Shown here piece after piece: positions 327 through 27,063 of a DNA stretch of 32,558 nucleotides. Where the stretch lies: contig JAJZYI010000002.1 of the NCBI GenBank assembly GCA_021798135.1, forward strand, positions 1-32,558, read 5' to 3'. This DNA comes from Actinomycetes bacterium (GTDB taxonomy: Bacteria; Actinomycetota; Acidimicrobiia; Acidimicrobiales; UBA8190). Positions within the stretch are counted from its first letter, which is position 1. Every line of letters starts with the position of its first letter. The position numbers and the translations under genes were made by a program. A model generated the notes under the pieces. It was not told the origin of the DNA. It ran no database searches and worked only from the letters and a program-made list of their open reading frames with translations.

Positions 327-443
327 ATGTCGACGTCGAGCGAGCGCGTCGAGACGCGCGCGGCCGCAGGCGGCCGCCTGCGCACGCTCCCGGGCAGCAC
401 GGCGCCCACGGCGCCCGTGCGCGGCGTGCCGGCGGTCTCCTGA
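327..443 (+). CDS. Small ORF overlapping the start of fliP (38 aa)
   Basis: ATG at 327 follows a purine-rich GAGAGGA site about 7 bases upstream. The ORF encodes 38 residues rich in Ala, Arg and Thr, beginning MSTSSERVETRAAAGG. Its TGA (441-443) overlaps the fliP ATG (443-445) as TGATG, so translation of the two could be coupled. I recognise no family. It may be a genuine leader. Alternatively it is the true N-terminus of FliP, separated from it by a one-base frame change: the fliP frame stays open upstream of 443 back to 287 and encodes a basic stretch, RARRAGGLL, just before the hydrophobic segment, but has no start codon there. Confidence 0.3.
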   Translation: MSTSSERVETRAAAGGRLRTLPGSTAPTAPVRGVPAVS

Positions 444-1126
444 TGGGCCTGCTCGTGGCGGCGGGGTCGTCGATCACGGTGAACCTCGGCCAGACCCTGG
501 CGAAGCCGTCGCAGAGCCTGATCGTCATCCTGGCGATCACCCTGCTGGCGGTGGCCCCGTCGCTCCTCGTCCTGCTCACGGGCTTCGTCCGGATCGTGGT
601 CGTCCTCAGCCTGACGCGCAACGCCCTGGGCCTGCAGACGACGCCGCCGAACCAGGTGCTCGCCGGCCTGGCGCTCTTCCTCAGCCTCTTCCTGATGATG
701 CCGGTGCTGAAGCAGGTCAACCAGGTGGCGGTGCAGCCCTACCTCCACGGCAAGGAGAGCGCGGTGGCCGCCTACCGCGAAGCCGAGGTCCCCCTGCGGT
801 CGTGGATGCTGAAGCAGACGGGCCCCAGCGAGATGGCCCTCACCGAGAGCGTCGACCACGAGCACCCGGCCAAGCCGCAGGACATCTCCATGGCGGCGCT
901 CGTCCCGGCCTTCCTGCTCTCGCAGCTCAAGAGCGCCTTCATCATCGGCTTCGTGGTGTTCGTGCCGTTCCTGATCATCGACCTGGTGGTGGCGTCGGCG
1001 CTCATGTCGATCGGGGTCGTCATGTTGCCACCGACCCTGGTGTCGCTGCCGTTCAAGCTGCTGCTGTTCGTGATGGTGAACGGCTGGGTCCTGATCACGC
1101 ACTCCCTGGTGGTGAGCTTCCGATGA
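443..1126 (+). CDS. fliP: Flagellar type III export gate protein FliP
   Basis: The 227-residue product is an integral membrane component of the flagellar export gate, where FliP forms the pore with FliQ and FliR in the basal body. Family features are clear: KPSQSLIVILAITLLAVAPS near the N-terminus, then SLTRNALGLQTTPPNQVLAGL, the central LSQLKSAFIIGFVVFVPFLI and the C-terminal VMLPPTLVSLPFKLLLFVMV. There are about four hydrophobic segments separated by a periplasmic loop at roughly residues 95-145. FliP is normally made with a cleavable signal peptide. Here the called N-terminus (MGLLVAAGSSITVN) is short and carries no basic residue, so the start is uncertain. The stop overlaps the fliQ start by four bases (ATGA), which indicates coupled translation. 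Confidence 0.95.
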   Translation: MGLLVAAGSSITVNLGQTLAKPSQSLIVILAITLLAVAPSLLVLLTGFVRIVVVLSLTRNALGLQTTPPNQVLAGLALFLSLFLMMPVLKQVNQVAVQPYLHGKESAVAAYREAEVPLRSWMLKQTGPSEMALTESVDHEHPAKPQDISMAALVPAFLLSQLKSAFIIGFVVFVPFLIIDLVVASALMSIGVVMLPPTLVSLPFKLLLFVMVNGWVLITHSLVVSFR

Positions 1127-1395
1127 CCGACGTGGAGGTGACCCACCTGGCCACGCAGGCGCTCCTCATGGGCGCCAAGCTGGGCGCACCGATCCTGCTG
1201 GCGAGCCTGGTCGTCGGCCTGGTGGTCTCCCTGTTCCAGTCGGTGACCCAGCTGCAGGAGGTGACCCTCACCTTCGTGCCGAAGCTGGCGGCGATCGCCC
1301 TGGTGCTGCTGTTCTCCGGTCACTGGATGCTCTCCCAGTTCGTCGGCTACGTCCAGCAGCTCTTCGGCCACGTCACCACCCTGGTCGGGGGCTGA
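1123..1395 (+). CDS. fliQ: Flagellar export gate protein FliQ
   Basis: This 90-residue protein has the usual FliQ length, with two hydrophobic helices at about residues 15-38 and 50-80. Recognisable family sequence includes GAPILLASLVVGLVVSLFQS, TQLQEVTLTFVPKL and a hydrophobic C-terminal helix ending near the GHWM motif. FliQ packs around the FliP/FliR complex in the flagellar export gate. The ATG overlaps the fliP stop codon by four bases, so this gene is very likely translated by ribosomes finishing fliP. fliR follows after 12 bases. Confidence 0.95.
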   Translation: MTDVEVTHLATQALLMGAKLGAPILLASLVVGLVVSLFQSVTQLQEVTLTFVPKLAAIALVLLFSGHWMLSQFVGYVQQLFGHVTTLVGG

Positions 1396-1407
1396 CGCCG
1401 TCCGGCG

Positions 1408-2175
1408 ATGCAGATCTCGCTCGACCCGACGTGGCTGATCGGCTTCCTCCTGGCCTTCGTGCGCTCGGCCGCATGGCTGGCGGTGGTGCCGCCGTTCTCC
1501 AACGTCCAGAGCCTGCCCCGGACGGTCCTCGTCGGCGTGGCGGGCGGCTTCGCCATCCTGTCCGCCCCCCTCGTCGCCGCCGCCGGCGTGCCCACCACCA
1601 CGCCGGCGCTCGTCGGGGCCATCGTGATGCAGGTCCTCGCCGGGGTGGCGCTCGGCTTCTCGGTCCGGATCCTGGTGGCCACCATCGGGTCCGCCGGTGC
1701 CATGGTCGACCTCCTCGGGGGTATCAGCGTGCCACCGTCGATGGACCCCCTGTCGGAGAGCCAGATGCCGCTGATCGGCCAGCTCTACGACCAGGTGGCG
1801 ATCGTCGCGCTGTTCGCCAGCAACGGGGAGCTGCTGCTCGTGCGCGGGTTCGAGTCGTCGTTCGCCACCAGCGGGGTCGTCGCCGGCAACGGGAGCCACC
1901 TGGCGAACGTGCTGGTGGCCGACCTCGCCACCTTCTTCACGGCATCGCTCGAGATCGCCGCCCCGATCCTGGCCGTGCTGTTCTGCACCCAGATCAGCCT
2001 GGCCCTGCTGGCGAAGGCCGCGCCACAGCTCAACGCCTGGTGGCTCGGCATGCCGCTGCAGATCCTGCTGTCGCTGCTCATGACCGCCTTCGCCATCCGC
2101 GTGGTGCCCGGCTACCTCACGCAGCTGGTCGACCGGGCGCTGCAGGACGCGCACCTGATCCTCGGGCTGGCGTGA
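1408..2175 (+). CDS. fliR: Flagellar export gate protein FliR
   Basis: The product has 255 residues, normal for FliR, and about six hydrophobic segments. Family landmarks are the N-terminal RSAAWLAVVPPFSN, the GSAGAMVDLLGGISVPPSMDP loop region, and the LALLAKAAPQLNAWWLGMPL segment, which corresponds to the conserved ARxxPQxNxFxxGxPxQ motif of the family. FliR caps the FliP pore and contacts FlhB to complete the export gate. There is no strong Shine-Dalgarno site in front of the ATG, and coupling to fliQ 12 bases upstream is likely. flhB follows after 7 bases. Confidence 0.95.
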   Translation: MQISLDPTWLIGFLLAFVRSAAWLAVVPPFSNVQSLPRTVLVGVAGGFAILSAPLVAAAGVPTTTPALVGAIVMQVLAGVALGFSVRILVATIGSAGAMVDLLGGISVPPSMDPLSESQMPLIGQLYDQVAIVALFASNGELLLVRGFESSFATSGVVAGNGSHLANVLVADLATFFTASLEIAAPILAVLFCTQISLALLAKAAPQLNAWWLGMPLQILLSLLMTAFAIRVVPGYLTQLVDRALQDAHLILGLA

Positions 2176-2182
2176 GGCGACC

Positions 2183-3286
2183 GTGGCGGGGAACCGTGAC
2201 GACCGCACCGAGAAGCCCACCGCCAAGCGCAAGCGCGACGCGCGCCGCGAGGGGCAGATCGCCAAGACGCCCGAGCTGGCGGGGTGGCTGTCGCTGCTGG
2301 CGGTGACGGAGGCGGCCCCCAGCCTGCTGCGCAGCGCCACCACCCGGATCGAGGGGGTGTTCGCCCAGGCGTCGCACGTGATGGCGAACCCGACGGCGCC
2401 CGGCGCGCTCGCCGTGTTCGAGTCCGGCCTCGGCCAGGCGGTCTTCGTCACGCTCCCGATCCTCGGCATGGTCGGCGCGCTGGCGCTGTTCGCCACGGTG
2501 AGCCAGGTCGGGTTCGTGGTGGCCACCAAGGCGGCGGCGCCCAAGCTGTCACGCCTGAACCCGATCGAGGGCCTGCGCAACCTGCTGTCGCCGGCGACGC
2601 TGTGGGCGCTGGCCAAGGAGATCCTCAAGCTGGCCGTCGTCGGCCTGCTCTCCTACCAGGTCATCAGCGGCATGGTGCGCGAGCTGGTGGACGCCCAGCC
2701 GACCGGCCTGGGCCCGGTCGTGACGTACGCGGCGGGCCGGATCCTCGCCATGGTGCGCGAGGTCGCCGGGGCGGGCCTGCTCATCGCCGTCGGCGACTAC
2801 GCGTACCAGCGGCACCGCATCGGCAAGAACATGAAGATGACCAAGCAGGAGGTGAAGGAGGAGGCCCGCAACCAGGAGGGCGACCCGCACCTGAAGGGGG
2901 CGATCAAGCGCAAGCAGCGCCAGCTGAGCCGCATGCGGATGATGGCGGCCGTCGCCGGCGCCGACGTGGTCGTCACCAACCCGACGCACTACGCCGTCGC
3001 CCTGCGCTACGACCCGGACGCGGGGCAGGCGCCGCGGGTGGTGGCGAAGGGCGCCGACGAGGTGGCGCGCCGGATCCGCGAGGAGGCGCACGAGCACGCG
3101 GTCCCCGTCGTCGAGGACCCGCCGCTGGCACGGGCCCTGTACGCGGCGTGCGACGTCGACGCGCTCGTGCCCCACGAGCTGTACGTGGCCGTGGCCCGGT
3201 TGCTGGCCTTCGTCTTCATGCTCCCGGCGGTCGTGCGCGCCTCGGGCAGCGTGCACCGCCGGCCCACTTCGGCGATGATCGCCTGA
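2183..3286 (+). CDS. flhB: Flagellar export specificity switch protein FlhB
   Basis: This 367-residue protein starts at a GTG. The N-terminus reads DRTEKPTAKRKRDARREGQIAKTPEL, the signature FlhB opening. Four membrane segments lie between about residues 30 and 210, followed by a charged linker with KQEVKEEARNQEGDP. The cytoplasmic domain carries the autocleavage motif NPTH at residues 266-269 (VVTNPTHYAVALRY); family members cleave themselves between N and P to switch export from hook to filament substrates. The tail continues to VVEDPPLARALY and DALVPHELYVAVARLLAFVF, and then adds about 20 residues without family resemblance. It is the last flagellar gene here, and a hairpin follows the stop. 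Confidence 0.96.
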   Translation: MAGNRDDRTEKPTAKRKRDARREGQIAKTPELAGWLSLLAVTEAAPSLLRSATTRIEGVFAQASHVMANPTAPGALAVFESGLGQAVFVTLPILGMVGALALFATVSQVGFVVATKAAAPKLSRLNPIEGLRNLLSPATLWALAKEILKLAVVGLLSYQVISGMVRELVDAQPTGLGPVVTYAAGRILAMVREVAGAGLLIAVGDYAYQRHRIGKNMKMTKQEVKEEARNQEGDPHLKGAIKRKQRQLSRMRMMAAVAGADVVVTNPTHYAVALRYDPDAGQAPRVVAKGADEVARRIREEAHEHAVPVVEDPPLARALYAACDVDALVPHELYVAVARLLAFVFMLPAVVRASGSVHRRPTSAMIA

Positions 3287-3410: not shown

Positions 3411-4067
3411 TTGGAAGGGCACGAGTTGGGAGCGCTGGTCGGCCGGTGGGCCCGTCTCCGGCCGACCGACGGGGCGGGCATCGTGAGGGACGGGGCGAGC
3501 CGCCGCCCGGCCGGCGACTGGGTCGAGGTCGCCGTGGTGTCGAACCTCGACACCGTGCTCCGCTGCGAGACGCGCGACCAGCGGGCGCTGGGGCTCGCCG
3601 GCCGGCCGGTGCTCGTGGAGCTCGGCGCGCCGGAGGCCATGGTCCGCCTGCCGGCGACGGTGCGCGTGCTGGTCGGCTCGCCGCCGCCGGTGGTGCTGGC
3701 GGTCGCCGTCGCGGGCGAGCTCGAGCACCTGCAGCGGCGGGAGTGGGTCCGTGCCCGGGTCACCGTGCCGGTCGAGATCACGGTGGACGCCACGCACGGG
3801 GGCGGGTCGTTCCGCAGCACCACGGTCGACCTCTCCGGCGGCGGGGTGCGCATCCGCCTGGCCGGGCCGCTCGAGGAGGGCGAGCCGGTCGGCCTGACCC
3901 TCTGGCTCCCCACGGGCCCGATCGAGGTCGACTGCACCGTGCTGGAGGTCACCGAGGACGGCATGGCCCGCCTGGCCTTCGACCGTGCGCCCGAGGCGGT
4001 GTCCAAGCGGCTCGTCCGGTTCGTCTTCGACGTGCAGGTCCGCAACCACCGTCTCGCCGAGCCCTGA
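3411..4067 (+). CDS. YcgR-like PilZ domain c-di-GMP receptor
   Basis: The TTG start at 3411 is supported by a GAGGAG site about 8 bases upstream. The product has 218 residues. The first 105 or so form a beta-rich domain resembling the N-terminal YcgR domain. The C-terminal half is a PilZ domain with both c-di-GMP binding motifs: RxxxR at R110-R114 (within RREWVRAR) and DxSxxG at D140-G145 (DLSGGG). Proteins of this type bind c-di-GMP and act on the flagellar motor or export apparatus as a brake. Location directly after flhB and before a diguanylate cyclase supports a role in controlling motility. No partner protein can be inferred from sequence alone. Confidence 0.88.
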   Translation: MEGHELGALVGRWARLRPTDGAGIVRDGASRRPAGDWVEVAVVSNLDTVLRCETRDQRALGLAGRPVLVELGAPEAMVRLPATVRVLVGSPPPVVLAVAVAGELEHLQRREWVRARVTVPVEITVDATHGGGSFRSTTVDLSGGGVRIRLAGPLEEGEPVGLTLWLPTGPIEVDCTVLEVTEDGMARLAFDRAPEAVSKRLVRFVFDVQVRNHRLAEP

Positions 4068-4149
4068 ACGGCCGGCCGGAGGGCTCCGGGTCGCGGAACG
4101 ACGATCCGCCGTCCTCAAGCCGGGCCCCGGCCGCGCCGACACCTGCCAC

Positions 4150-6354
4150 ATGGGTGAGCTTCGACCGGCCGCGCCCTCCTGGGAGCCGCTCGTGGAGCGT
4201 GCCAGGACGCCGAGCGGCCGCGGTCCCGCGGCAGAGGTCCCGCCGGGGCCGGCCGGCCGGGCCGGCAGCGGCTCGATCCTGGCCCGCAACGCCGTCGCCG
4301 TCGTGCTGGCCCAGGTGGAAGCCGAGCGCGGCCTGGAGGGCGTCGACGCCGTGCTGGGGGCCGTGAGCGCCCGGCGGCAGCGGGTGGAGGACCTGGCGGC
4401 GCGGTCGTGGACGCCGGTGCAGGAGGTCGTGGCGGTGTTCCAGGCGGCAGCGGTCACCGTCGGCGACCCGGCCGTGAGCAGGCGCGCGGGCGCCAGCGTG
4501 TTCGCCCAGCCGCACATGGCGCCGGTGGTGGCGCTCCTGCGGACCCTCGACCGCCCGTCCGATGCCCTGGAGCTCATCGCCGACACGGCGGCGACCGAGT
4601 CGGCCGTCCTGGACCTGACGCTCGACGGGGTCCGGGGCGACGTCGCCTCCGTGTCGATGGCGATCCGCCCACCGCTGGCGCCCGACCACCTGCTCTGCGG
4701 GTACGCCGCCGGGCTGCTCTCGTCGGTCCCCGGCCTCTTCGGCCTGGCGCCGACCTCGGTCACCGAGACCGAGTGCCAGGCCGACGGCGCGCCCCGGTGC
4801 CGCTTCGTCGTCGCGTGGGGCGCCGACGCCGACGCCGGCGCCGCCGGCACCGGGCGGCGCCAGGAGGAGGGCGGCACCGTCGCGGAGCGAGTCGCCGCGA
4901 GCCTCGCCGCCCCGGGTGACCTCGACCGGACGCTCGCCGACGTGGTCGCCGGGGCGACGGGGGCGGCCGCCGGGCGCCGGGGCCTGCTGGCGGTGCGCGT
5001 GCCCGCCGGGGCCGGCGCGCCGGGACCGCTCGGCGACGGCGAGCCGCAGGTGTTCGCCTACGGGCTGACCGACAGCGAGGCCCGGGGTGCCGCCCGTGCC
5101 CTGGACCGCGTCCCGGTCCGGCCCGGCATCGCCGTCCGGGGTGCCGGCGGCTGGTGGCTGGCGCCGATCGACGACGGGTCGGGGCCGGCGGGCTACCTCG
5201 CCGTCGACGGGCCGGCGTGCGACGACCCCGGGCGCCGCGTGGCGTCGTGGTCGGCGATGGCGTCGATCGCCGTGCGGACGGCGACGCTGGGCGCTGCCGT
5301 CCGCGGCCGCGCGCAGGCGGCGTCGGCGCTGGCGGACGCGGCCGGTGATCTCGCCCGGGCCGGCAGCAAGGCCGACGTCGCCCGGGTCCTGGCCCGGGCC
5401 GCGCCGCTCGTCGTCGGCGGGCACCGGGCCGTGGTGGCGGAGTGGCTGCCGGCGTCGGGGAGCCTGGTGACGCTGGCGCGCACCGCCCCCCGGGCGCTGC
5501 AGCGCACCGACCCCCCGCCGGTGGTCGCCTGCGGGCCGTTCGTGGAGCGGTTGGTCCGCGGCGGCCACGCCATCGCCCTGCAGGCGAGGGACACCGAGCC
5601 GGTCGTGGAGGACCTCTGCCGGGTCGCGGGGTTCGACACCGGCCTGGTGGTGCCCCTGGTCGCCCGGTCGAGGTGCTACGGCGTGCTCGTGGTCGACGCG
5701 GACCCGGAGGGGGCAGGTGCCGGCGGGCCCGCCGGCGGGCACCGCCTGCCCCGGCTGGCGCGCGGCGAGGCCGCGGCAGGGCTGGCGAGCATGGCCGCCC
5801 TGGCCTTCGACCGGGTGGCCCTGGCCGACCAGGCCGAGCGGGGCGAGCACCACGACGCCCTCACCGGTTTGCCGGACCGGCGGCTCCTGGAGCTGCACGC
5901 CCGGCGGGCGCTGGCTGCCGCCCAGCGCGAGGGCCGCTGCACGGCGATGCTGTACGTCGACGTCGACGGCCTGGCCGCGCTGAACGACCGGTTCGGGCGC
6001 GCCGTCGCGGACCAGGTCCTGGCGGCGGTGGGCCGGCGGCTGCAGGCCGCGGTGCGGGTGGCGGACGTGGTGGCCCGTTCCGGCGGGGACGAGTTCGCCG
6101 TCCTCCTCCCGTCGACGTCGCTGCCCCAGGAGGCCACCGTCGTCGCCGAGCGGGTGGCGGGAGCCTTCGCCGTCCCGGTCGTCGTCGGCGGGGTGGAAGC
6201 GGCCGTCACGGTGAGCGTCGGTGCCGCGCTCAGCGAGCCGGGGGACGAACCCCGCGAGCTCCTGGCCCGGGCCGTCGGGGCGATGCGCGCCGCCAAGGCC
6301 GCCGGACGCGGGCGGATCCGCCTGGGATCCCCACCGGGGTCCACCGGGACCTGA
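4150..6354 (+). CDS. GGDEF diguanylate cyclase with N-terminal sensory domains
   Basis: The protein has 734 residues when started at ATG 4150; an upstream start would overlap the PilZ gene. Residues of about 35-230 form an alpha/beta region ending YAAGLLSSVPGLFGLAPTSV, then TECQADGAPRCRFVVAW, which resembles V4R/heme-NO-like ligand domains (tentative). Residues of about 360-560 look like a GAF domain. The C-terminal GGDEF domain starts at LTGLPDRRLLELHARR and has an intact active site, SGGDEF (G645-F649). The preceding RVAD (R636-D639) is a canonical RxxD inhibitory site, so the enzyme should make c-di-GMP from GTP and be feedback inhibited. The PilZ gene immediately upstream is a plausible receptor. 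No transmembrane segment is evident, so it is probably cytosolic. Confidence 0.9.
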   Translation: MGELRPAAPSWEPLVERARTPSGRGPAAEVPPGPAGRAGSGSILARNAVAVVLAQVEAERGLEGVDAVLGAVSARRQRVEDLAARSWTPVQEVVAVFQAAAVTVGDPAVSRRAGASVFAQPHMAPVVALLRTLDRPSDALELIADTAATESAVLDLTLDGVRGDVASVSMAIRPPLAPDHLLCGYAAGLLSSVPGLFGLAPTSVTETECQADGAPRCRFVVAWGADADAGAAGTGRRQEEGGTVAERVAASLAAPGDLDRTLADVVAGATGAAAGRRGLLAVRVPAGAGAPGPLGDGEPQVFAYGLTDSEARGAARALDRVPVRPGIAVRGAGGWWLAPIDDGSGPAGYLAVDGPACDDPGRRVASWSAMASIAVRTATLGAAVRGRAQAASALADAAGDLARAGSKADVARVLARAAPLVVGGHRAVVAEWLPASGSLVTLARTAPRALQRTDPPPVVACGPFVERLVRGGHAIALQARDTEPVVEDLCRVAGFDTGLVVPLVARSRCYGVLVVDADPEGAGAGGPAGGHRLPRLARGEAAAGLASMAALAFDRVALADQAERGEHHDALTGLPDRRLLELHARRALAAAQREGRCTAMLYVDVDGLAALNDRFGRAVADQVLAAVGRRLQAAVRVADVVARSGGDEFAVLLPSTSLPQEATVVAERVAGAFAVPVVVGGVEAAVTVSVGAALSEPGDEPRELLARAVGAMRAAKAAGRGRIRLGSPPGSTGT

Positions 6355-15461: not shown

Positions 15462-16916
15462 ATGGCGACGGCGAGCTCCGGGGCGGCACGCGGCACGGCT
15501 GGCGGGCGGCGGCGCGCCCGACCGGTGGGAGCGGTCTTCGTCGACCTGGACCGCACGCTCCTGTCCGGGGCGAGCGGGCTCGTCCTGAGTGCCGCCCTTC
15601 GGGCCGAGGGGCTGCTCGACGGGCGGCCCCGCCTCCCCGGCGAGCGGCTGCTGTACGGCGTCTACGACGCCGTGGGCGAGAGCGTGCCGTTCATGGCGAT
15701 GGTCCGCGCCGCCGTGCGCTTCGTCCGAGGCTGGCCGGTCGAGTCGGTCCGGCGGGCCGGCGAGCTCGCCGCACCCGAGCTGCTGGACCTGCTCCAGCCG
15801 TACGCACCGGGTGTGCTGGCCGAGCATCGCGCCGCTGGCCGCCGCATCGTGCTGGCGACGACGTCGCCGGTCGACCTGGTGGAGCCGTTCGCCCGGCTGA
15901 TCGGGTTGGACGACGTCATCGCCACCCGCTACGAGCAGTCGGGCGGCCGGTACACCGGGCGGATCGAAGGCAGCTTCGTCTGGGGGGTGGGCAAGCTGGC
16001 CGCGGTGCGCGAGCGGGCTGCCACGCAGGGGTACGACCTGGCGGAGAGCCACGCGTACTCCGACAGTGTCTTCGACGTGCCGCTCCTCGGCAGCGTCGGC
16101 CACGCCCACGCCGTGCAGCCCGACCTCCGCCTCCGGCTGGTGGCCACGATGGCGCGCTGGCCGATCGAGCACTGGGACCGGCCGGCGGGCGTGCCCGGGC
16201 TGGCCGGGCTCGAGACCTACCACCTCCTCCGACCTTTCGTGCGTCCCGAGGCGTTCCCGTACGCGCGCTTCGACGTCCAAGGCGTCGAGAACGTGCCTGC
16301 TCGCGGGCCGGTGCTGCTGGCGTCGAACCACCGCAGCTACTTCGACGTGGTCGCCCTGGCGATCGTGGCGGCGCGGATCGGCCGGCCCGTCCGCTTCCTC
16401 GGCAAGCGCGAGCTGTTCGACGCCCCGGGGCTGGGCTGGCTGGCACGAGCGCTGGGCGGCATCCCCGTGGACCGCGACGACGACCCGGCCCGCGCCCTGG
16501 CCGCCGCACGCCAGGCGCTGCAGGCCGGCGAGCCGGTGATGATCATGCCGCAGGGCACCATCCCGCGTGGCAGGGCGTTCTTCGAGCCCGCGCTGCGCGG
16601 CAAGACGGGCTGCGCGCGGCTGGCAGCCATGACCGGCGCACCCGTGGTCCCGATCGGGCTCTGGGGCACCGAGGCGGTGTGGCCCCGAGCGGCGAAGCTG
16701 CCCACCGTCACGACGGTCGGAACCGGCCCGACGGTCCGGGTCCGGGTCGGCGACCCGCTCGACCTCGCTGCCGAGGCGGCGACGGACCCGGCGGCCGCGA
16801 CCGAGCGCCTGATGGCAGCGATCGTCGCGCTGCTCCCGCCCGAGGCGCTGGTGGAGCGGGAGCCGACCGCGGCGGAGATCGCACGGGCCACGCCGTCGAG
16901 CCGCCGCAGCCGATGA
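15462..16916 (+). CDS. HAD-IB phosphatase fused to PlsC acyltransferase
   Basis: The 484-residue protein joins two enzymes. Residues of about 22-240 form a HAD-IB phosphatase with intact motif I DLDRT (D28, D30), LATTSPVDLVEP and the ESHAYSDSVFDVPLL motif. Residues of about 265-460 form a PlsC-type acyltransferase with H-x4-D in NHRSYFD (H290, D295) and FLGKRELFDAPGLGWLARALGGIPVDR. The third acyltransferase motif reads PQGT (Q364) where EGT is usual. The same domain order is known in mycobacterial bifunctional PlsC proteins, predicted to act in phosphatidic acid or related lipid synthesis at the membrane. Substrate order is unknown. The mRNA appears leaderless. The MurT-GatD gene follows after 28 bases, probably in the same operon. 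Confidence 0.9.
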   Translation: MATASSGAARGTAGGRRRARPVGAVFVDLDRTLLSGASGLVLSAALRAEGLLDGRPRLPGERLLYGVYDAVGESVPFMAMVRAAVRFVRGWPVESVRRAGELAAPELLDLLQPYAPGVLAEHRAAGRRIVLATTSPVDLVEPFARLIGLDDVIATRYEQSGGRYTGRIEGSFVWGVGKLAAVRERAATQGYDLAESHAYSDSVFDVPLLGSVGHAHAVQPDLRLRLVATMARWPIEHWDRPAGVPGLAGLETYHLLRPFVRPEAFPYARFDVQGVENVPARGPVLLASNHRSYFDVVALAIVAARIGRPVRFLGKRELFDAPGLGWLARALGGIPVDRDDDPARALAAARQALQAGEPVMIMPQGTIPRGRAFFEPALRGKTGCARLAAMTGAPVVPIGLWGTEAVWPRAAKLPTVTTVGTGPTVRVRVGDPLDLAAEAATDPAAATERLMAAIVALLPPEALVEREPTAAEIARATPSSRRSR

Positions 16917-16944: not shown

Positions 16945-19086
16945 GTGAGCGCCGTTCGCGTCCGCCTGGCGGTGGCGGCAACCGTGGCCGTGGGGCGAGC
17001 GTCGCGGTGGCTGGGGCGGGGCAGCGGCTCGGTCGTCGGGGGAAGGGCGGGCCTGGCCATCGCTCCCGACCTCGTCCGCTCGCTCGCCGCCGACCGGATG
17101 GTCGCGCTGGTGAGCGCCACGAACGGCAAGACGACCACGACCCGGCTCCTCGTCACTGCCCTCGGTGGCACTGACCGGGTGGCGACGTCGGCGGCGGGCG
17201 CCAACCTGCCCGCCGGCATCGCCGCAGCGCTGGCGGGCGCCGATCCCGGCAGCCCCGCCGTCCTGGAGGTCGACGAGGGCTACCTGGCATCGGTGGCGGA
17301 CGCGGTGCGGCCGACGGTCGTCGCGCTGCTGAACCTGTCGCGTGACCAGCTCGACCGCGTCAGCGAGGTCCGCGCCATCGCGACGAGGTGGCGGGCTGCG
17401 CTCAGCCGCCTGCAAGGCACCACCGTCGTGGCCAACGCCGACGACCCCCTGGTCGCGTGGGCGGCGTCGTCGGCGCCGTCCGTGCGGTGGGTCGCCGCCG
17501 GACAGCTGTGGCGTGCCGATGCCACCGGCTGCCCGTCGTGCGGCGGCCGCATCCAGTTCGGCGGTGACGAGGGCGACGTGGGGTGGGCCTGCCCCGCGTG
17601 CGGGCTGCGCCGGCCGGAGCCGATGGCAGTGCTGCGGGGCACCACGCTGGGGCTCGCCGACGGGCGGCGGCTGCCCGTCGCGACCAGGCTCCCGGGCCGG
17701 TGCAACGTGGCGAACGCCGCCATGGCCGCAGTGGCGGCCGAGGTGATGGGCGTCGACGCGGCGGAGGCGCTCGCGTCGATGGCGGCCGTGGCCGAGGTAG
17801 AGGGCCGGTTCGCCGTGGCCCGCCATCGCTGCGGGGCGGACGGGCACGAGGTGGCGGCGCGGCTGCTGCTGGCGAAGAACCCAGCAGGGTGGGTGGAGCT
17901 GCTCGACCTCCTCGACGGCGGTCGCAGCGAGCCGCGGCCGGTGGTCGTCGGCATCAACGCGCGGATCGCCGACGGGCGCGACCCGTCGTGGCTGTGGGAC
18001 GTGGCGTTCGAGCGGCTGGAGGGTCGGCTCGTGGTCGCCACAGGCGAGCGGGCGTGGGATCTGGCCGTCCGCCTGCGCAGCGCCGGGGTCGACCATCGCG
18101 TCGAGCCCGACCAGGTGGCGGCGCTGCACGTGCCGGGGGTGGCCGAGGTCGACTACGCCGGCAACTACACGGCGTTCCAGGAGCTGCGGCGGCGGCTCGA
18201 CCGTGGGCGGGGAAGGCGGGATCGCTCCGGCGAGCAGCCGCGAGTGGTCGCCGGCGCCCCGGCCGCGGGATCGGGCGGGCGGGCACGTCCGTCGGGCAGC
18301 GAGCTGCGGGTCGTCGTGGTCCACCCGGAGCTGCTGGGGACGTACGGCGACGGCGGCAACGCGACGGTGCTCGCGGCACGGGCGGCCTGGCGGGGGCACG
18401 ACGTGGACGTGGTCCTGGCCGGCGCCGACGACCCGCTGCCCGCCTCGGGGGACGTGTACCTGCTCGGCGGGGGCGAGGACGGGCCGCAGGTGCAGGCCGC
18501 GGCCGTGCTGGCGCAGACCTCGCTGCGCCGGGCGGTCGACGGTGGCGCCGTCCTGCTCGCCGTCTGCGCCGGCTTCCAGGTCGTGGGGACCTCGTTCCCG
18601 GGGCCCGACGGCCTGCTGCGAGACGGCCTGGGCCTGCTCGACGTCGCGACGGTCAAGCGCAACGGACCGAGAGCCGTCGGCGAGCTGCTGGCGGAGCCGG
18701 TCGCAGCGGAGGAGGGCGCCGGCGAGCCGGTGGCCCGGGGCCTGGTGGCGTCGGGCGGTCTGCTCACTGGCTTCGAGAACCACAGCGGCGCCACCACGCT
18801 GGGACCGGCGGTGCGGCCGCTCGGCCACGTGACGCGCGGTGTCGGCAACGACGGCGGCGGCGGCGAGGGCGCGTGGTCCGGCCGGGTCGTCGGGACCTAC
18901 CTGCACGGTCCCGTCCTGGCGCGCAACCCGGCGCTCGCCGACGCGCTGCTGGCGATGGCCCTCGGAGCGGCGCCGGAGCCGATCGACGACGCGGAGGAAG
19001 CCGAGCTCCGTCGGGAGCGGATCGGTGCCGCGACCGCGGCCGACCGGGGGCGGCTCGGTCGGTTCCGGGTCCATCGACGCCACTGA
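16945..19086 (+). CDS. MurT-GatD fusion, lipid II isoglutaminyl synthase
   Basis: The 713-residue protein combines both subunits of the enzyme that amidates the D-glutamate of lipid II using glutamine and ATP. Residues 1 to about 415 are MurT-like: P-loop SATNGKTTTTR (N60, K62), a four-Cys zinc ribbon (C196, C199, C216, C219), KNPAGWVELLDLL (N312-W316) and NARIADGRDPSWLWD, ending YAGNYTAFQELRRRL. After a linker rich in Arg, Gly and Ala (about 416-450), residues of about 451-690 are GatD-like: class I glutamine amidotransferase with nucleophile Cys541 (AVCAGFQVVG) and His654 (GTYLHGPVLARNP). In Staphylococcus, Streptococcus and mycobacteria these are two adjacent genes. The reading frame is continuous across the junction, with no stop or start cluster suggesting two proteins. 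Confidence 0.93.
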   Translation: MSAVRVRLAVAATVAVGRASRWLGRGSGSVVGGRAGLAIAPDLVRSLAADRMVALVSATNGKTTTTRLLVTALGGTDRVATSAAGANLPAGIAAALAGADPGSPAVLEVDEGYLASVADAVRPTVVALLNLSRDQLDRVSEVRAIATRWRAALSRLQGTTVVANADDPLVAWAASSAPSVRWVAAGQLWRADATGCPSCGGRIQFGGDEGDVGWACPACGLRRPEPMAVLRGTTLGLADGRRLPVATRLPGRCNVANAAMAAVAAEVMGVDAAEALASMAAVAEVEGRFAVARHRCGADGHEVAARLLLAKNPAGWVELLDLLDGGRSEPRPVVVGINARIADGRDPSWLWDVAFERLEGRLVVATGERAWDLAVRLRSAGVDHRVEPDQVAALHVPGVAEVDYAGNYTAFQELRRRLDRGRGRRDRSGEQPRVVAGAPAAGSGGRARPSGSELRVVVVHPELLGTYGDGGNATVLAARAAWRGHDVDVVLAGADDPLPASGDVYLLGGGEDGPQVQAAAVLAQTSLRRAVDGGAVLLAVCAGFQVVGTSFPGPDGLLRDGLGLLDVATVKRNGPRAVGELLAEPVAAEEGAGEPVARGLVASGGLLTGFENHSGATTLGPAVRPLGHVTRGVGNDGGGGEGAWSGRVVGTYLHGPVLARNPALADALLAMALGAAPEPIDDAEEAELRRERIGAATAADRGRLGRFRVHRRH

Positions 19087-20596: not shown

Positions 20597-21649
20597 TCAG
20601 TCCCGGCGCACCGCCCAGCGGCGGGGGTCGCCGTCGCCGTGCGCCGACGAGCTGTCGTGCTCGCCGGTCCAGGCGGCGGGCGTCCCGCCGAGGGCCCAGG
20701 CCCGACGCCATGGAGAGGCGTCGGGGCCCCGGGCGTCCTGGACGGTCGTGCCGGCGGCGGCCTGGCGCCGGGCGGTCCACCAGTCGGTGCGGGACTCGGC
20801 CGCCAGGGTCGCCAGCGCCGTCTCGAGCCGCGCCGACAGGTGCCGGGCGTCCTCGCCGTCCTCGGGGTACAGCGGTGCGCCGACGACGACCGTGGTGCGG
20901 GCGCGCCGGACGCGCGTGCCGCCCTTGGGGAGGATCCGGTGGGTGCCGGCCAGGTGGACGGGGATGACCGGGCGACCGGTGCGCGCCGCCGGGAGGCTGG
21001 CGGCCCGGTGCAGCTCCTGCTGCCAGCCGTCGGGCGAACGGCCCCCTTCTGGGAAGATGAGGAGGCTCCAGCCGTCCTCGACGAGTGCCGTGGCTTCGTC
21101 GACCGACCGCCGGCTCACCCGGTTGCGCTCCAGCGGGATGGCCCCGAGGAGCCCGGCCCACAGATGGGCCTTCCACCGCCGGTCGAAGAAGTGGTCGGCG
21201 GCCGCCGCCACCACGGTGCGGTGGCGGATGCGGTCGGGCAGGACTGACAGCAGCAGCGGCGTGTCGAGGTGGCTGGTGTGGTTGGCGACGATCACGACGG
21301 GCGCTTCGGCCATGTCGAGCAGCTCGGCGCCGCGGACGAGCGGGGACGCCAGGAGGTGGACCGCCGGGCGGGTGAGGTTGTCGGTGACCATCGCGCGGGC
21401 GAGGCGGACGGGGTACCGGCGGGCCCAGGCCGTGTCGTACTCGTCGCCCAGCCCGGAGGACGGCACCGGCCTGGCGACGGTCCCGGGCCACGTCGGCGCG
21501 CCCCACGGGAACGGTGCCGGCCTGGTCGCCCTGCGCAGGCGGGCGCGCGCGAGGCGGCCGACCCCGGTGACGGCCGAGGCCGACCATGCGCGCCGTCCCG
21601 TCGGCTGCCGGCCGGCTCCGAGGTCTGGGTCGCGGCGTGCTGCGGTCAT
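20597..21649 (-). CDS. PlsC-like 1-acyl-glycerol-phosphate acyltransferase
   Basis: The 350-residue protein has a PlsC domain at about residues 115-290, with NHTSHLD (H-x4-D catalytic motif), PLERNR, FPEGGRSPDG (the EGGR form of motif III) and PVIPVHLAGTHRILPKG. The first 100 residues and the last 50 are low-complexity extensions. Unlike the HAD/PlsC protein at 15462, its third motif keeps the Glu, so it is likely an active acyl-CoA or acyl-ACP dependent acyltransferase acting at the membrane. It starts 10 bases after the stop of the LarA-like gene and is the last member of the TetR-linked operon. The acceptor could be a glycerol-phosphate or an alcohol made by upstream enzymes. Confidence 0.88.
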   Translation of the reverse strand: MTAARRDPDLGAGRQPTGRRAWSASAVTGVGRLARARLRRATRPAPFPWGAPTWPGTVARPVPSSGLGDEYDTAWARRYPVRLARAMVTDNLTRPAVHLLASPLVRGAELLDMAEAPVVIVANHTSHLDTPLLLSVLPDRIRHRTVVAAAADHFFDRRWKAHLWAGLLGAIPLERNRVSRRSVDEATALVEDGWSLLIFPEGGRSPDGWQQELHRAASLPAARTGRPVIPVHLAGTHRILPKGGTRVRRARTTVVVGAPLYPEDGEDARHLSARLETALATLAAESRTDWWTARRQAAAGTTVQDARGPDASPWRRAWALGGTPAAWTGEHDSSSAHGDGDPRRWAVRRD

Positions 21650-21659
21650 GCTCCTGCCC

Positions 21660-23246
21660 TCACCGGACGTCGGCGATCATGAGCGGCGGGGCGTGGAGGT
21701 GGGTGACCGACGGGCTCGGCCCGACCACGTCGGCAGCGATCTCGAGCGCGTCGGCCAGGGTGGACGCCGGGCGGAAGCCGAGCCGCCGGACCGTCGAGGG
21801 CTCCCCCCCGACGACCACGACGGCGCCGAGGTGGTCGAGGGCGTGGGCGCACCAGTACCACATGTAGAAGGGGTGGACGCCGTGGTAGGCGTGGCCGGTG
21901 CGGTAGAGGTGGACGTACCAGGGGTCGGTGGCGAACGCCTCTTCCCACTTGTGGATCTCGGCCGGATCGGTGGTCTCGGCCAGGATCTCCTCGTAGAAGT
22001 CGATGTAGCTGGGATGGTGGCCGGGGTGGAAGGCCTTGCGCGTGGGATGGCTCATGATGAGCACGCCGCCCTCGCGCACGAGCGGCCTGCCCCGGTACAG
22101 GTTGAAGAAGTACCCGAGGCCCAGGCAGGCGACGAGGATCGGGTTCATGATGGAGTTGACGTTGTACGGGCTGATGTACGGGAGCCCCATGGTGAGCACG
22201 TCGCTCTGGCCGTCGACCTCCACCAGCTGCTGGGCGTGGACGTGCCCGGTCGTGACGGCGTGGACGGCCTCGACCTCACCGGCCTGCACCGATGTCATGC
22301 GGTGGGGACCGGCGATGCCGTGCAGCACGCTCCGGGCCAGGCGGGCCGGCGTCCGCGCCAGGGCGGCGCTCGACGCCACGAAGGCGGCCCGGTCGCGGGC
22401 GCTCCACTCCCACTCCCTGCGCTGGAGGAACCGGAACTGCTCCGGGAAGGCGTCGTTGTTCAGGGTGGTCTCGATCTGGAAGACCCGGACGCCGCTGGCG
22501 GCGATGAGGCGTCCCATGCGCCAGTTGCTGCTGTGCAGCTCGGACCGGTGCTGGTCCATGAACGAGCGGCTGTGACGCATGGTGTGGGCATTGTGGTGGT
22601 GGCGCAGGCTGCGGTACGAGGCCAGGCCGGTGGCCACCGACTTGTGGCCGCCGTCCATGGCGACCAGGTTGATGTTGACGTAGACGAGCAGGTCGGACTC
22701 CGCCGCCCGGCGCGAGAGCTCCACGTCCTCGCCCTGGTCGGTCGTGCCGAGGTGGACCAGCTCGGACGGGTCCTCGGCATCGTGCTGGCGCAGCAGGCCG
22801 TGCGGGGCGAAGGCGTCGTAGATCCGGTCGCCGAGCGCGTGGCGCAGCTCCGCCTCGGTCATGCGGCGGTGCAGCGCCAGCGCGGCGATCAGCACCACGT
22901 CGTCGACGCCCGCCTCGGCCGCCAGGTCGAGCACCTGCTCGATGACGAGCTGCCGGTTGTCGGGCCGGCGCATGGGGGGCAGGGGCAGGGACACGTCGTC
23001 GAAGGCGATGGTGAGCCTCATGCCGGGCCGCAGCAGGCTGCGCAGCGGCTGGCTGTCGCCGAGGGGGTGGTCCAGGGCGTGGCGGACGGCGGCCACCGGG
23101 TCGGCGAGCGGCTCGATCGGCTCGGGCGCGTAGACCACCCGGCTGCCCTGCGGCAGGCGCTCCAGGCGGTAGCCCTCGCCGTGCCAGAACAGCGTCGGCG
23201 GGGTGGACCGGTCCACCTCCAGCACATAGCCGGGTCTGGGGCTCAT
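21660..23246 (-). CDS. LarA-like (DUF2088) protein, possible nickel-pincer enzyme
   Basis: The product has 528 residues and shows clear relation to lactate racemase LarA. Compared from memory with L. plantarum LarA: ALHRRMTEAEL holds His126 (LarA H108), GGHKSVATGLASYRSL holds Lys202 (the cofactor-bearing K184), and HHHN holds His218 (nickel ligand H200). Two catalytic positions differ: DDVSLP has Leu87 where LarA has Arg75, and NINLVAMDGG lacks the His174 equivalent. It is also about 100 residues longer than LarA. It probably binds the nickel-pincer cofactor but acts on another substrate. No larB, larC or larE is in the window. The ATG overlaps the dehydrogenase stop as ATGA. AAAGGA lies about 10 bases upstream. 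Confidence 0.8.
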   Translation of the reverse strand: MSPRPGYVLEVDRSTPPTLFWHGEGYRLERLPQGSRVVYAPEPIEPLADPVAAVRHALDHPLGDSQPLRSLLRPGMRLTIAFDDVSLPLPPMRRPDNRQLVIEQVLDLAAEAGVDDVVLIAALALHRRMTEAELRHALGDRIYDAFAPHGLLRQHDAEDPSELVHLGTTDQGEDVELSRRAAESDLLVYVNINLVAMDGGHKSVATGLASYRSLRHHHNAHTMRHSRSFMDQHRSELHSSNWRMGRLIAASGVRVFQIETTLNNDAFPEQFRFLQRREWEWSARDRAAFVASSAALARTPARLARSVLHGIAGPHRMTSVQAGEVEAVHAVTTGHVHAQQLVEVDGQSDVLTMGLPYISPYNVNSIMNPILVACLGLGYFFNLYRGRPLVREGGVLIMSHPTRKAFHPGHHPSYIDFYEEILAETTDPAEIHKWEEAFATDPWYVHLYRTGHAYHGVHPFYMWYWCAHALDHLGAVVVVGGEPSTVRRLGFRPASTLADALEIAADVVGPSPSVTHLHAPPLMIADVR

Positions 23247-24562
23247 GGGGTGCGTCCTTTCCGGGTTCCGGACCTGCGCGTGCCGCCGGCACCCGAGCGG
23301 CCGCCAGCGGGCCGGGGCGCGCCGCTGGCGACGGTCCGGGGAGCCCGCTCGTCCGGCGGCACCTGGCGTGGCGGCCGCTGACCGGGCTCGAACACGATCT
23401 TCACGGCTCCGCGTCGACCGGCGGCACCGGCGTGGGCGAGCGCCTCGGCGTAGCGCTCCAGGGGGTAGCGGGCGGACACCAGTCGGCCGAGCCCGGCGGC
23501 GGCGACGACGTCGAAGGCGAGGTCGAACGTGCGGCGGCCGCCGGCCTCCAGTCCGTAGGCGTAGGTCCCGGCCAGGGTGACCTGGCGGTGCCACAGGGGA
23601 GCCAGGTCGACGTGCAGCCGACCGGGCATGCCGACGAGCACCACCCGGCCGCGGGGCCTGACCATGGCGAGGCTGGCGGCGAGCGACGCACTGCTGCCGA
23701 CGCAGTCGACGACGACGTCGGCACCGGCGGTGACCTGGCCGGCCAGCCGCAGCGAGCGTGTGGCGCGGCGCACCGACCGGTCGAGCTGGTCCGGCTCGAC
23801 CGCCCGGTCGGCACCGAGCTCGAGGGCGAGGGACCGCTGGTGCGGGTAGCGCGCGCCGACGAGCAGCTGGCCCGGGTCGGACAGCCGGCGGAGGGCGGCG
23901 ACGGTGGCGAGCCCGAGCGTGCCGGCGCCGAGCACCGCGACGCATGCCCCATCGGCCACCTCGGCGGCCAGCGCGCCGTGCACCGCGCACGCGGTGGGCT
24001 CGACCATCACCGCGTCCTCGTCGCTCAGGCCGTCGGGCACGGCGTGGAGCTGGCTGGCGTGGGCGACCAGGCCGGCCGCCGACCAGCCGCCCCCCGTGTC
24101 GGCGCAGTAGCCGATCTGCAGGCCCGGCGAGAGGTGGCCGACGGCAAGGTGCTGGCAGGCGCCGGTGTCGCCCGCGGCACAGGCGGGGCACGGCGGCTCC
24201 ACGCCTCGCGGCACGCAGCCGATCACGGGCTCGATCACGACGCGGCTGCCGGCGGCCAGCGGCGATCCGTCGGGCGGCTGCTCGAGCGTGCCGACCACCT
24301 CGTGGCCGGGCACGAAGGGGAAGCTGACCATCTCCTCGAAGTACCGCGAGCTGGCCCCGTCCACGGTGGCCAGGTCCGAGCCGCAGATCCCGGCCAGCAG
24401 GGGGCGGACACGACCCCACGCCGGTCCCGGCAGGTCCGGCTGGTCGGCGTCGACCATGCGCAGCGGCCCGGCCGCGGCGCCGTGCCCGCTGCCCCGGAGC
24501 GTGGCGGCGACGCGGGCGGCGGCGAAGCGGGCCACGGCCCGCTCGAACACCAGTGCCTTCAT
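23243..24562 (-). CDS. Zinc-dependent medium-chain alcohol dehydrogenase
   Basis: The product has 439 residues from the ATG at 24562. Catalytic zinc ligands are expected in GICGSDLATV and PGHEVVG. The structural zinc loop is Cys-rich (CVPRGVEPPCPACAAGDTGACQHL). The Rossmann fold reads VAVLGAGTLGLATVAAL, followed by VVDCVGSSASLAASLAMVRPRGRVVLVGMPG. About 45 extra residues rich in Pro, Arg and Gly form the C-terminus, and the 25 residues before PLRMVDAD are unusual too. Both ends are coupled by ATGA overlaps to the reductase-HAD gene upstream and the LarA-like gene downstream, so the three proteins are probably made in parallel. It could oxidise or reduce an alcohol or 2-hydroxy intermediate made by its neighbours. 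Confidence 0.9.
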   Translation of the reverse strand: MKALVFERAVARFAAARVAATLRGSGHGAAAGPLRMVDADQPDLPGPAWGRVRPLLAGICGSDLATVDGASSRYFEEMVSFPFVPGHEVVGTLEQPPDGSPLAAGSRVVIEPVIGCVPRGVEPPCPACAAGDTGACQHLAVGHLSPGLQIGYCADTGGGWSAAGLVAHASQLHAVPDGLSDEDAVMVEPTACAVHGALAAEVADGACVAVLGAGTLGLATVAALRRLSDPGQLLVGARYPHQRSLALELGADRAVEPDQLDRSVRRATRSLRLAGQVTAGADVVVDCVGSSASLAASLAMVRPRGRVVLVGMPGRLHVDLAPLWHRQVTLAGTYAYGLEAGGRRTFDLAFDVVAAAGLGRLVSARYPLERYAEALAHAGAAGRRGAVKIVFEPGQRPPRQVPPDERAPRTVASGAPRPAGGRSGAGGTRRSGTRKGRTP

Positions 24563-27063
24563 CGGCTCTCCCGCAGGGCGTGGTCGATGCGGGCCCACCA
24601 TCGCGACGCGGCCCCGTCGAGCGGGCCCATCGGCAGCGGCGGGCGGGTGGCGGCCCGGTCCCAGTGCTCCACGTGCCAGCCGCGGCGCCGGGCGATGGCC
24701 GCCAGCTTGGTCTCGGGGTTGACGGCCACGGGGAAGCCCACGCACTCGAGCAGGGGCAGGTCGGACGCCGAGTCGGCGTAGGCGACACCCTCGCCGAGGT
24801 CGAGGCCCTCGGCCTCGGCGTACTCGGCCAGCACCAGCGCCCGCGCCTCGCCGGTGGGCGGCAGGCGCACGAGCCGCCCGTCCACGCGGCCCTCGGCGTC
24901 GACACCGAGCTCGGCGCAGACCACCTCGTCGAACAGCGGGCGCAGCCCCTCGACGACGAAGTCGAGCGCGCCGGTGATGAGGACGGTCCGGTGCCCGAGG
25001 GCCCGGTGGCGCCGTACCCGGGCGATGCCGGCCGGGAACGACTTGGCCAGCAGCAGGTTGTGGAACAGCTCCAGGCCGTCGCGGCGGAGCACGTCGGCCG
25101 GGGCGCCGTCGTAGCGGCGGTAGAAGCCGCGGAGGAAGTCGCCGCGGTCGCGCCGGTCGACGGCGGCCAGCCCGGGCGCGGCGGCCAGGATCCGTGCCGC
25201 GAAGGCGGCGCGCTCGCCGGCGGGGAGGTGGCGCGTGGCGAGCCACGTGTACGACTCCACGACGTTGGACGCCACCAGCGTGTTCTCGAGGTCGAAGGCG
25301 GCGAGGTGGCGATCGGGCGCCAGGATGGCGCGCCGGGCCCGGTCCCCGCGGTTGGCCATCACCGACTTCCCCGGCGTGGTCCGGACCCGGGCGTGCTGCA
25401 CCACCGACGGCAGGTGGATGTCGTGGACGTAGGCGTCCCAGTCGACGACGCCGGGATCGAAGCAGAACGCCCGCTGGTCCTCGGGCGACAGGCGCTCCCA
25501 GAGCGCGAGCAGCCGGTCGACCCGGAAGAGGGCTTCGGTCTCGGTGTACGCGCCGTACAGCTCCACGTAGGAGCGGGCCCGTTCCGCCTGCATCCGGCGC
25601 TCCTCCACGCGGCCGGCGAGCTCGGCCCGCTCCCCGCGCAGCGGCAGGCTGGTGAGGAGCCGCTCGGCCAGCTTCAGCACGTCGGTGGCCCGCTGCAGCT
25701 GCCGCTGGACGCGTCCGTGCCCGGGGAACGACCACTCGGGCACCACGATCGGCTGGCCGTCGCCGTCGTAGAGCGGATGGTCGGTGAACCAGCGCTGGAC
25801 CAGGTCGACGAGCTGGCCGTAGCGCAGCGGGTTGCGCACCCCCGACGCGACCTGGACCACGGACGGTCCCGCAGGGTCGGGCCCGTCCGCGGCCACGGCC
25901 ACGATGGCGGCGACCACCAGGTCGACCGGGATGACGTCGATCACGCCCTCGGGGAGGCCGGGGAACTCGCGCAGCAGGCCGCGGGCGTACGACACGATGA
26001 TGGGCTCGGCCATCCGGAAGCCCCGGATCCAGCCGGGCTGCGGCTCGGCCAGCGCCGACTCGATGATCGACGGGCGGACGACCGTGATGGGGAGGTCGCC
26101 GTGCTCGCCGACCAGCAGCCGCTCGCCGAGCGCCTTGGTGAAGGCGTAGGCGTCCGGCCAGCCCAGCGCCTGGGCCCTGGCCCGGCCGGCCTCGACGAGC
26201 TCGGCGCGGACCCAGTCGTCGCGCAGGCGCTCGGCGCGCTCGGCCAGCAGGTGGACGCCCGCGGCGCCGAGCTCTCGCCGTGCCGCGGCGGTGAAGCCGC
26301 CGAGCCGTTCGGGTCGCCGGGACGCCGCCTCGAGGTCGTCGCGCAGCCGCCGGACGGCAGTGACCTCGGCGGCGATGTCCACCTCGGTGGTGACCGTGGT
26401 GTGGGTGCGGGCCCGGGCTCCGGAGGCCATGGCCGCGGTGGCCAGCGTCTCGGTGGCGTGCCCCTGGTGGGTGCCGGCCACGTAGGCGGTCGACACCGAG
26501 ACCAGGTGGGTGGGCGGCGCTCCGGGGCGCAGCTCGGCCCGCAGGTCAGCGGCGGCGGCGATCGCCGCGCCGACGCGGGCCGGGCCGAGCAGGTTCACCT
26601 CGACGGCGGCGTCGAAGGCGGCGTCGAAGGCGACGGTGGCGGCCGAGTGCACCACGATGTCGGCCGCGGCGAGGGCGCCGCGCCCGGCGTCGTCGAGCCC
26701 GAGGCCGTCGCGGCCCACGTCCCCGGCCACCGCGGCGAACCGGCCGGCCACCTCGCCGTCGAACCGGTCGCCCAGCTCGTGGCGGAGGCGGGCGAAGCAG
26801 TCGTTGCCCAGGATCTCGCGCCGGGCGCGGGCCGCGGCGTCGAGGCGCCGGGTGGGGCGCACCAGGACGGTCACGTGGCAGCCGGGGACGCAGCGGAGCA
26901 GGCGCTCCACCAGGGCGGTCCCGAGGAACCCGGTGGCGCCGGTGACGAAGAGCCGCTGGCCGGCGAGCTGCCCCGCGATCCCGGGCCCGGTGGTGGCGCC
27001 GGCCGTCGACCTGGTGCGAGACTTCGTCGGCCCGGGGCGGCTCGGCGGGGTGGCCTGTGGCAC
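24559..27063 (-). CDS. Fatty acyl reductase (NAD-binding 4) fused to HAD-IB domain
   Basis: The 834-residue protein starts at GTG 27063. Residues of about 36-400 form an extended-SDR reductase of the male-sterility/fatty acyl-CoA reductase type, with TGATGFLG (41-48), VHSAATVAFD, VSTAYVAG and the catalytic Y306-x3-K310 (YAFTK), then RPSIIESALAEPQPGW. A helical Sterile-like region runs to about 560. Residues of about 587-800 are a HAD-IB domain: motif I FDLENTL (D591), LITGAL, and ADSASDLPLLE (D764, D768). In motif I the second Asp of DxD is Glu593, so phosphatase activity may be altered. Reductases of this type make fatty aldehydes or alcohols from acyl-CoA. It is the first gene of the operon, divergent from TetR. 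Confidence 0.9.
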   Translation of the reverse strand: MPQATPPSRPGPTKSRTRSTAGATTGPGIAGQLAGQRLFVTGATGFLGTALVERLLRCVPGCHVTVLVRPTRRLDAAARARREILGNDCFARLRHELGDRFDGEVAGRFAAVAGDVGRDGLGLDDAGRGALAAADIVVHSAATVAFDAAFDAAVEVNLLGPARVGAAIAAAADLRAELRPGAPPTHLVSVSTAYVAGTHQGHATETLATAAMASGARARTHTTVTTEVDIAAEVTAVRRLRDDLEAASRRPERLGGFTAAARRELGAAGVHLLAERAERLRDDWVRAELVEAGRARAQALGWPDAYAFTKALGERLLVGEHGDLPITVVRPSIIESALAEPQPGWIRGFRMAEPIIVSYARGLLREFPGLPEGVIDVIPVDLVVAAIVAVAADGPDPAGPSVVQVASGVRNPLRYGQLVDLVQRWFTDHPLYDGDGQPIVVPEWSFPGHGRVQRQLQRATDVLKLAERLLTSLPLRGERAELAGRVEERRMQAERARSYVELYGAYTETEALFRVDRLLALWERLSPEDQRAFCFDPGVVDWDAYVHDIHLPSVVQHARVRTTPGKSVMANRGDRARRAILAPDRHLAAFDLENTLVASNVVESYTWLATRHLPAGERAAFAARILAAAPGLAAVDRRDRGDFLRGFYRRYDGAPADVLRRDGLELFHNLLLAKSFPAGIARVRRHRALGHRTVLITGALDFVVEGLRPLFDEVVCAELGVDAEGRVDGRLVRLPPTGEARALVLAEYAEAEGLDLGEGVAYADSASDLPLLECVGFPVAVNPETKLAAIARRRGWHVEHWDRAATRPPLPMGPLDGAASRWWARIDHALRESR

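Follow-up and report, generated by a model that had tools for sequence, protein, structure and literature searches.

A stretch of 32,558 nucleotides from an actinobacterial metagenome bin (contig JAJZYI010000002.1; hereafter the window) raises the question of whether MurT and GatD, the two subunits of the lipid II isoglutaminyl synthase, which most bacteria produce separately, can be made as a single polypeptide, and how widespread such an arrangement might be. Several pathogens cannot do without MurT/GatD, which is a drug target. In the characterised systems the two subunits are separate proteins encoded in one operon (PMC3266927, PMC6085368, PMC6113224, PMC10484409), as the original prediction for this locus rightly held in proposing that here both share one frame of 713 residues; yet merged murT-gatD ORFs from Actinobacteria were published by Figueiredo et al. 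in 2012 (PMC3267633), who describe them as "rare cases" and give three in the legend to their Figure S1, the main text going no further. We found no later follow-up of these merged ORFs in the literature searched. Thus, the fused architecture is not new; it is known but, as far as we found in the literature searched, unstudied. What appears to be new is that the fusion is common, recurrent and conserved.

The gene occupies positions 16945 to 19086 of the forward strand, stop codon included; it is initiated by GTG and runs through 713 codons with zero internal stops, giving a protein with a computed mass of 72.95 kDa. The MurT half (residues 1-425; 16945..18219) combines a Mur-ligase middle domain at residues 59-173 (Pfam Mur_ligase_M, 1.3e-11; 45.3 bits against a cut-off of 24), a Cys4 zinc ribbon (C196/C199/C216/C219), which is a feature of only a subset of MurT proteins, and a MurT_C domain at residues 309-385 (1.1e-17; 64.5 bits against a cut-off of 25), and can be aligned to 6fqb_A and 7q8e_A. 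The P-loop, TNGKTTTT, lies at residues 59-66 with its lysine at K62, while the NPAGW motif is found at residues 312-316 and is followed by D346. A linker of 24 residues (426-449; 18220..18291), rich in Ala, Pro, Gly and Arg, predicted to be disordered and without homology, leads to the GatD half (residues 450-713; 18292..19083), a class-I glutaminase with Cys541 and His654 that is recognised as GATase_3 at residues 455-661 (4.1e-25; 89 bits against a cut-off of 27) and matches 6h5e_A with a Z score of 29.1 over residues 451-704. Hence every motif named in the original prediction, from the P-loop to His654, is present in the translation. In phmmer searches residues 13-387 resemble the MurT chains, and residues 453-713 the GatD chains, of the solved Staphylococcus aureus, Streptococcus pneumoniae and Streptococcus pyogenes complexes. 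Since almost the entire length of each half can be aligned to MurT or GatD chains whose structures have been solved, the domain match is not due to chance.

In comparison with the reference heterodimers, namely S. aureus SA1708/SA1707 (6gs2, 6h5e, 7q8e), S. pneumoniae 6fqb and S. pyogenes 9sq9, the protein has the same domains, catalytic residues, Cys4 ribbon, fold of each half and murT-gatD order. It differs from them in being a single polypeptide with a 24-residue linker, at about 30% identity. Both halves are thus encoded together, in one ORF; there are not two separately encoded subunits, the frame being single and the window offering no internal start supported by a Shine-Dalgarno (SD) motif. 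The window comes from a 3.27-Mb bin (a MAG of 396 contigs, 83% complete), of which it is contig 66; the fused gene is single-copy in this bin, and no separate gatD or murT was found at that completeness.

A draft bin of 396 contigs could in principle harbor a sequencing or assembly error that removed a stop codon or shifted the frame. To this, however, we assign a practically negligible probability: 50 distinct sequences, drawn from assemblies made independently, share the architecture and none has a stop between the domains; among them are long contigs and G437, a single-contig genome of 100% estimated completeness. Further, among the 17 genomes of the window's own family the fusion is found in 13 of the 13 that have both halves on one contig, the gene being broken by a contig end in the remaining 4. 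This family-wide conservation rules out an assembly error or a hidden stop, and the fusion of MurT and GatD in one ORF, as originally predicted from the open frame and its domains, is confirmed as real; it is also old.

The linkers of the 50 fused proteins are enriched in Ala, Pro, Gly, Ser and Arg and measure between 19 and 122 residues, with a median of 39; the frame is kept in all of them. Several have lengthened through tandemly repeated units of whole codons, for example RPVPVAPEA in L035 and DRPAPDGVAARVA in L053. A linker that varies in length and always stays in frame is what a translated linker would predict. As these 50 proteins were selected for their one-frame architecture, the family census and the comparison of start sites are the stronger points. 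If GatD were started separately, its ribosome-binding site should persist. An in-frame start with an SD-like motif, sought from 25 codons ahead of GatD up to the first few codons of GatD itself, accompanies 78 of 148 split genes, in contrast to 3 of 49 fused ones, and in-frame start codons of any kind near the boundary are likewise rarer in the fused genes (29/49 versus 144/148). These counts bear on the possibility that one frame yields two proteins, with a start inside the linker producing free GatD alongside the fusion or MurT alone. That start codons do occur near the boundary in 29 fused genes speaks for it, as does a GTG lying about 16 codons ahead of GatD, the sole in-frame start that the window's linker contains; moreover, leaderless or SD-independent initiation is possible in high-GC Actinobacteria, so that scarcity of SD motifs is no proof. 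Nevertheless, the GTG of the window has no SD-like motif, such motifs are rare throughout the fused set, and we give an internal start little chance of being correct. Similarly, the chain might be translated whole and then cut in its linker to restore a classical heterodimer. The predicted disorder of the linker would suit this, and there is a precedent in MoaX, the fused molybdopterin synthase of Mycobacterium tuberculosis, whose activity requires cleavage to judge from the title of a paper cited in PMC10484409. On the other hand, the linkers are of low complexity and very variable length and show no obvious conserved motif, and cleavage is a very unlikely outcome.

A survey of architecture across Actinobacteria, as the original prediction had suggested, showed the fusion to be widespread. 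Within Acidimicrobiales it is seen in families f1, f32, f40, f44 and f60 and in one genus of f16, whereas murT and gatD are separate in most other gene-bearing families of the order. Across the phylum, 396 surveyed genomes yielded a further fused group in families f85, f78 and f98. In f85, 52 of 60 genomes have a match, most of them reading through in one frame and a few being split, and the one-frame cases include a single-contig genome of 100% estimated completeness. Two full-length fused MurT-GatD copies, sharing about 60% and 53% identity with the query, are present in each of two genomes of this family, G813 and G852. The fused loci with public contig names come from metagenome bins labelled Acidimicrobiaceae or unclassified actinobacteria, with one labelled Dormiibacterota, and the loci retrieved from cultured organisms (Streptomyces, Nocardia, Corynebacterium and Actinoplanes) are all split. 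Three candidates were rejected as fused on account of a stop between the genes: L068, G249 (L138), in which the frame lengths are equal, and the Priestia plasmid pFDU301A, which gives a one-piece tblastn match. Although the murT-gatD operon has been called universally present in Actinobacteria (PMC6085368), in about half of the genomes sampled from the order it was not detected: of 298 Acidimicrobiales genomes surveyed, 150 have a match and 148 have none at E<=1e-20, many nearly complete genomes being among the latter.

We used phylogenetic trees, obtained from short searches and including some rows that are long-branched or of unusual composition, to ask how often the fusion arose. In a tree of 107 concatenated MurT+GatD sequences, 31 of 33 fused Acidimicrobiales rows fall in one clade (SH-aLRT 94, which is not strong), while L043, from genus g172 of f16, is placed with strong support inside the split relatives of its own family. 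A single clade for all the fused Acidimicrobiales rows is rejected (AU p = 5.6e-6); the same clade without L043 is not (AU p = 0.80). Families f85, f78 and f98 form a separate, strongly supported clade in a second, smaller tree to which this distant group was added, and uniting them with the fused Acidimicrobiales rows other than L043 is again rejected (AU p = 0.00175). These rejections, together with the placement of L043 and of f85/f78/f98, give a minimum of three independent fusions: that of the Acidimicrobiales clade to which the window belongs, that of a single f16 genus and that of f85/f78/f98. In the smaller tree two or three fused rows that are divergent (L036, L117 and L133) do not join the main fused clade, a placement that is weakly supported, and the exact number beyond this minimum is therefore not settled.

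The split relatives closest to the main fused clade suggest a route. In most of them murT and gatD overlap by 4 bases (GTGA or ATGA) in different frames, so that joining the two requires an indel. The genes of f86, f87 and f94 lie in register with just one stop codon between them, the loss of which would suffice. Hence, the ancestor of several Acidimicrobiales families would have had a murT-gatD operon, probably with the 4-base overlap, and the stop/start junction would have been lost, presumably through an indel. The gene immediately upstream in the window (15462..16916, forward strand), which lies outside the enzyme and combines HAD-phosphatase and PlsC-acyltransferase domains according to Pfam, is separated from the fused gene by 28 bases and is probably part of the same transcription unit. 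The same gene also precedes the fused L035 and the split L081, which is consistent with fusion having taken place in situ.

The active sites are intact: K62, E108, K311, D346, C541 and H654 are essentially invariant across the 50 fused and about 148 split pairs, and Cys541 and His654 do not vary in any of the 49 fused rows covering them. In L006, L008 and L009, fused proteins of genus g7 in the window's family, the third ribbon cysteine (C216) is replaced by Ser, and the zinc ribbon may be decaying in these. D346 is aligned to S. aureus MurT-D349, for which a role as third residue of the GatD triad was proposed in the S. aureus structure paper (PMC6113224); the S. pneumoniae study assigns this role to GatD-Asp32 instead (PMC6085368), and the third triad residue is thus disputed. 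Were the MurT-D349 proposal true, the fusion would put a split catalytic triad into one chain. An AlphaFold2 model computed from a 60-sequence alignment (pLDDT 88.4, pTM 0.88) drops under a pLDDT of 50 nowhere but in the linker (425-450) and the C-terminal tail, and the best fold matches of its two halves are the MurT and GatD chains of solved complexes. Such one-chain models are also compatible with proteolytic cleavage or domain-swapped dimers.

Taken together, we consider it highly likely that the gene product is a lipid II isoglutaminyl synthase made as one chain, that the gene was fused from an operon and that the two halves dock in cis. Its function is most likely the amidation of D-Glu in lipid II within one chain, as judged by homology at about 30% identity. 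We infer the substrate, chemistry and docking as follows. The GatD half would hydrolyse glutamine using Cys541 as the nucleophile together with His654, with Asp346 of the MurT half possibly supplying the third triad residue by analogy to S. aureus MurT-D349. The ammonia would then be transferred to the MurT half, where ATP would be spent on activating the D-Glu alpha-carboxyl of lipid II, so that D-isoglutamine is formed. The flexible linker would allow the halves to dock in a manner similar to that of the separate subunits in the heterodimers of S. aureus and S. pneumoniae. The two halves score below the NCBIfam equivalog cut-offs (114.5 versus 800 bits for NF045635 in MurT and 91.5 versus 400 bits for NF045636 in GatD, these being naming thresholds and not a defining biological feature), with the fused relatives L043 and L188 likewise under that of NF045635; consequently the functional assignment rests on conservation of domains and residues at this level of identity. 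The low scores could also mean that the fused enzyme amidates the product of a different Mur ligase, or that it is a paralog whose substrate has changed, and the 148 order genomes in which no match was detected imply that amidation is dispensable there. Yet the bin has just one copy, its active-site residues are identical to those of split MurT/GatD, the HAD-PlsC gene lies upstream as in a split relative, and the fused proteins nest among split MurT/GatD in trees, all of which render a change of substrate highly improbable. Beyond the single-chain synthase itself, the fusion could be recurrent, selectively kept and rarely undone in Actinobacteria and the chain could at the same time work differently from the heterodimer, for example through obligate cis-channelling of ammonia or membrane-targeting of both halves as one unit; we regard this combination as rather unlikely.

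The window also contains other genes of note. One ORF (24559-27063, reverse strand) joins a fatty acyl-CoA reductase-like part (NAD_binding_4, Sterile) to a HAD phosphatase domain and, along with a PlsC acyltransferase gene (20597-21649, reverse strand) and the HAD/PlsC gene described above, suggests lipid or wax-ester metabolism. Another (21660-24905, reverse strand), probably called too long at its start, resembles nickel-pincer-dependent hydroxyacid isomerases (LarAH14/15/16) in its C-terminal 520 residues, above the NCBIfam cut-off. Near the beginning of the window are fliP-fliR-flhB-like flagellar export genes (443-3286, forward strand), on account of which the organism is probably flagellated, followed by a gene (3985-6354, forward strand) for a GGDEF diguanylate cyclase of 789 residues, whose V4R match, at 28 bits, stays under the cut-off of 31.

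The architecture and phylum are those of the merged ORFs in the 2012 report (PMC3267633). Set against the cases that it calls rare, the fusion described here is conserved in several Acidimicrobiales families and in a second group of large size, and it has arisen three times or more. It is also reminiscent of the MurE-MurF fusion (PDB 8f5d), in which consecutive or cooperating cell-wall enzymes are likewise found in one chain; unlike that protein, which joins two ligases, it links a ligase to its glutaminase partner. A natural single-chain version would provide a ready one-construct enzyme for structural work, kinetics and inhibitor screens. In the organism itself murC is present elsewhere in the bin, so peptidoglycan synthesis is to be expected, and with the active sites intact it is reasonable to infer that peptidoglycan in this lineage is amidated. 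Being a single chain, the enzyme would have a fixed MurT:GatD stoichiometry, and repeated fusion is independent evidence that MurT and GatD function as an obligate pair of fixed ratio.
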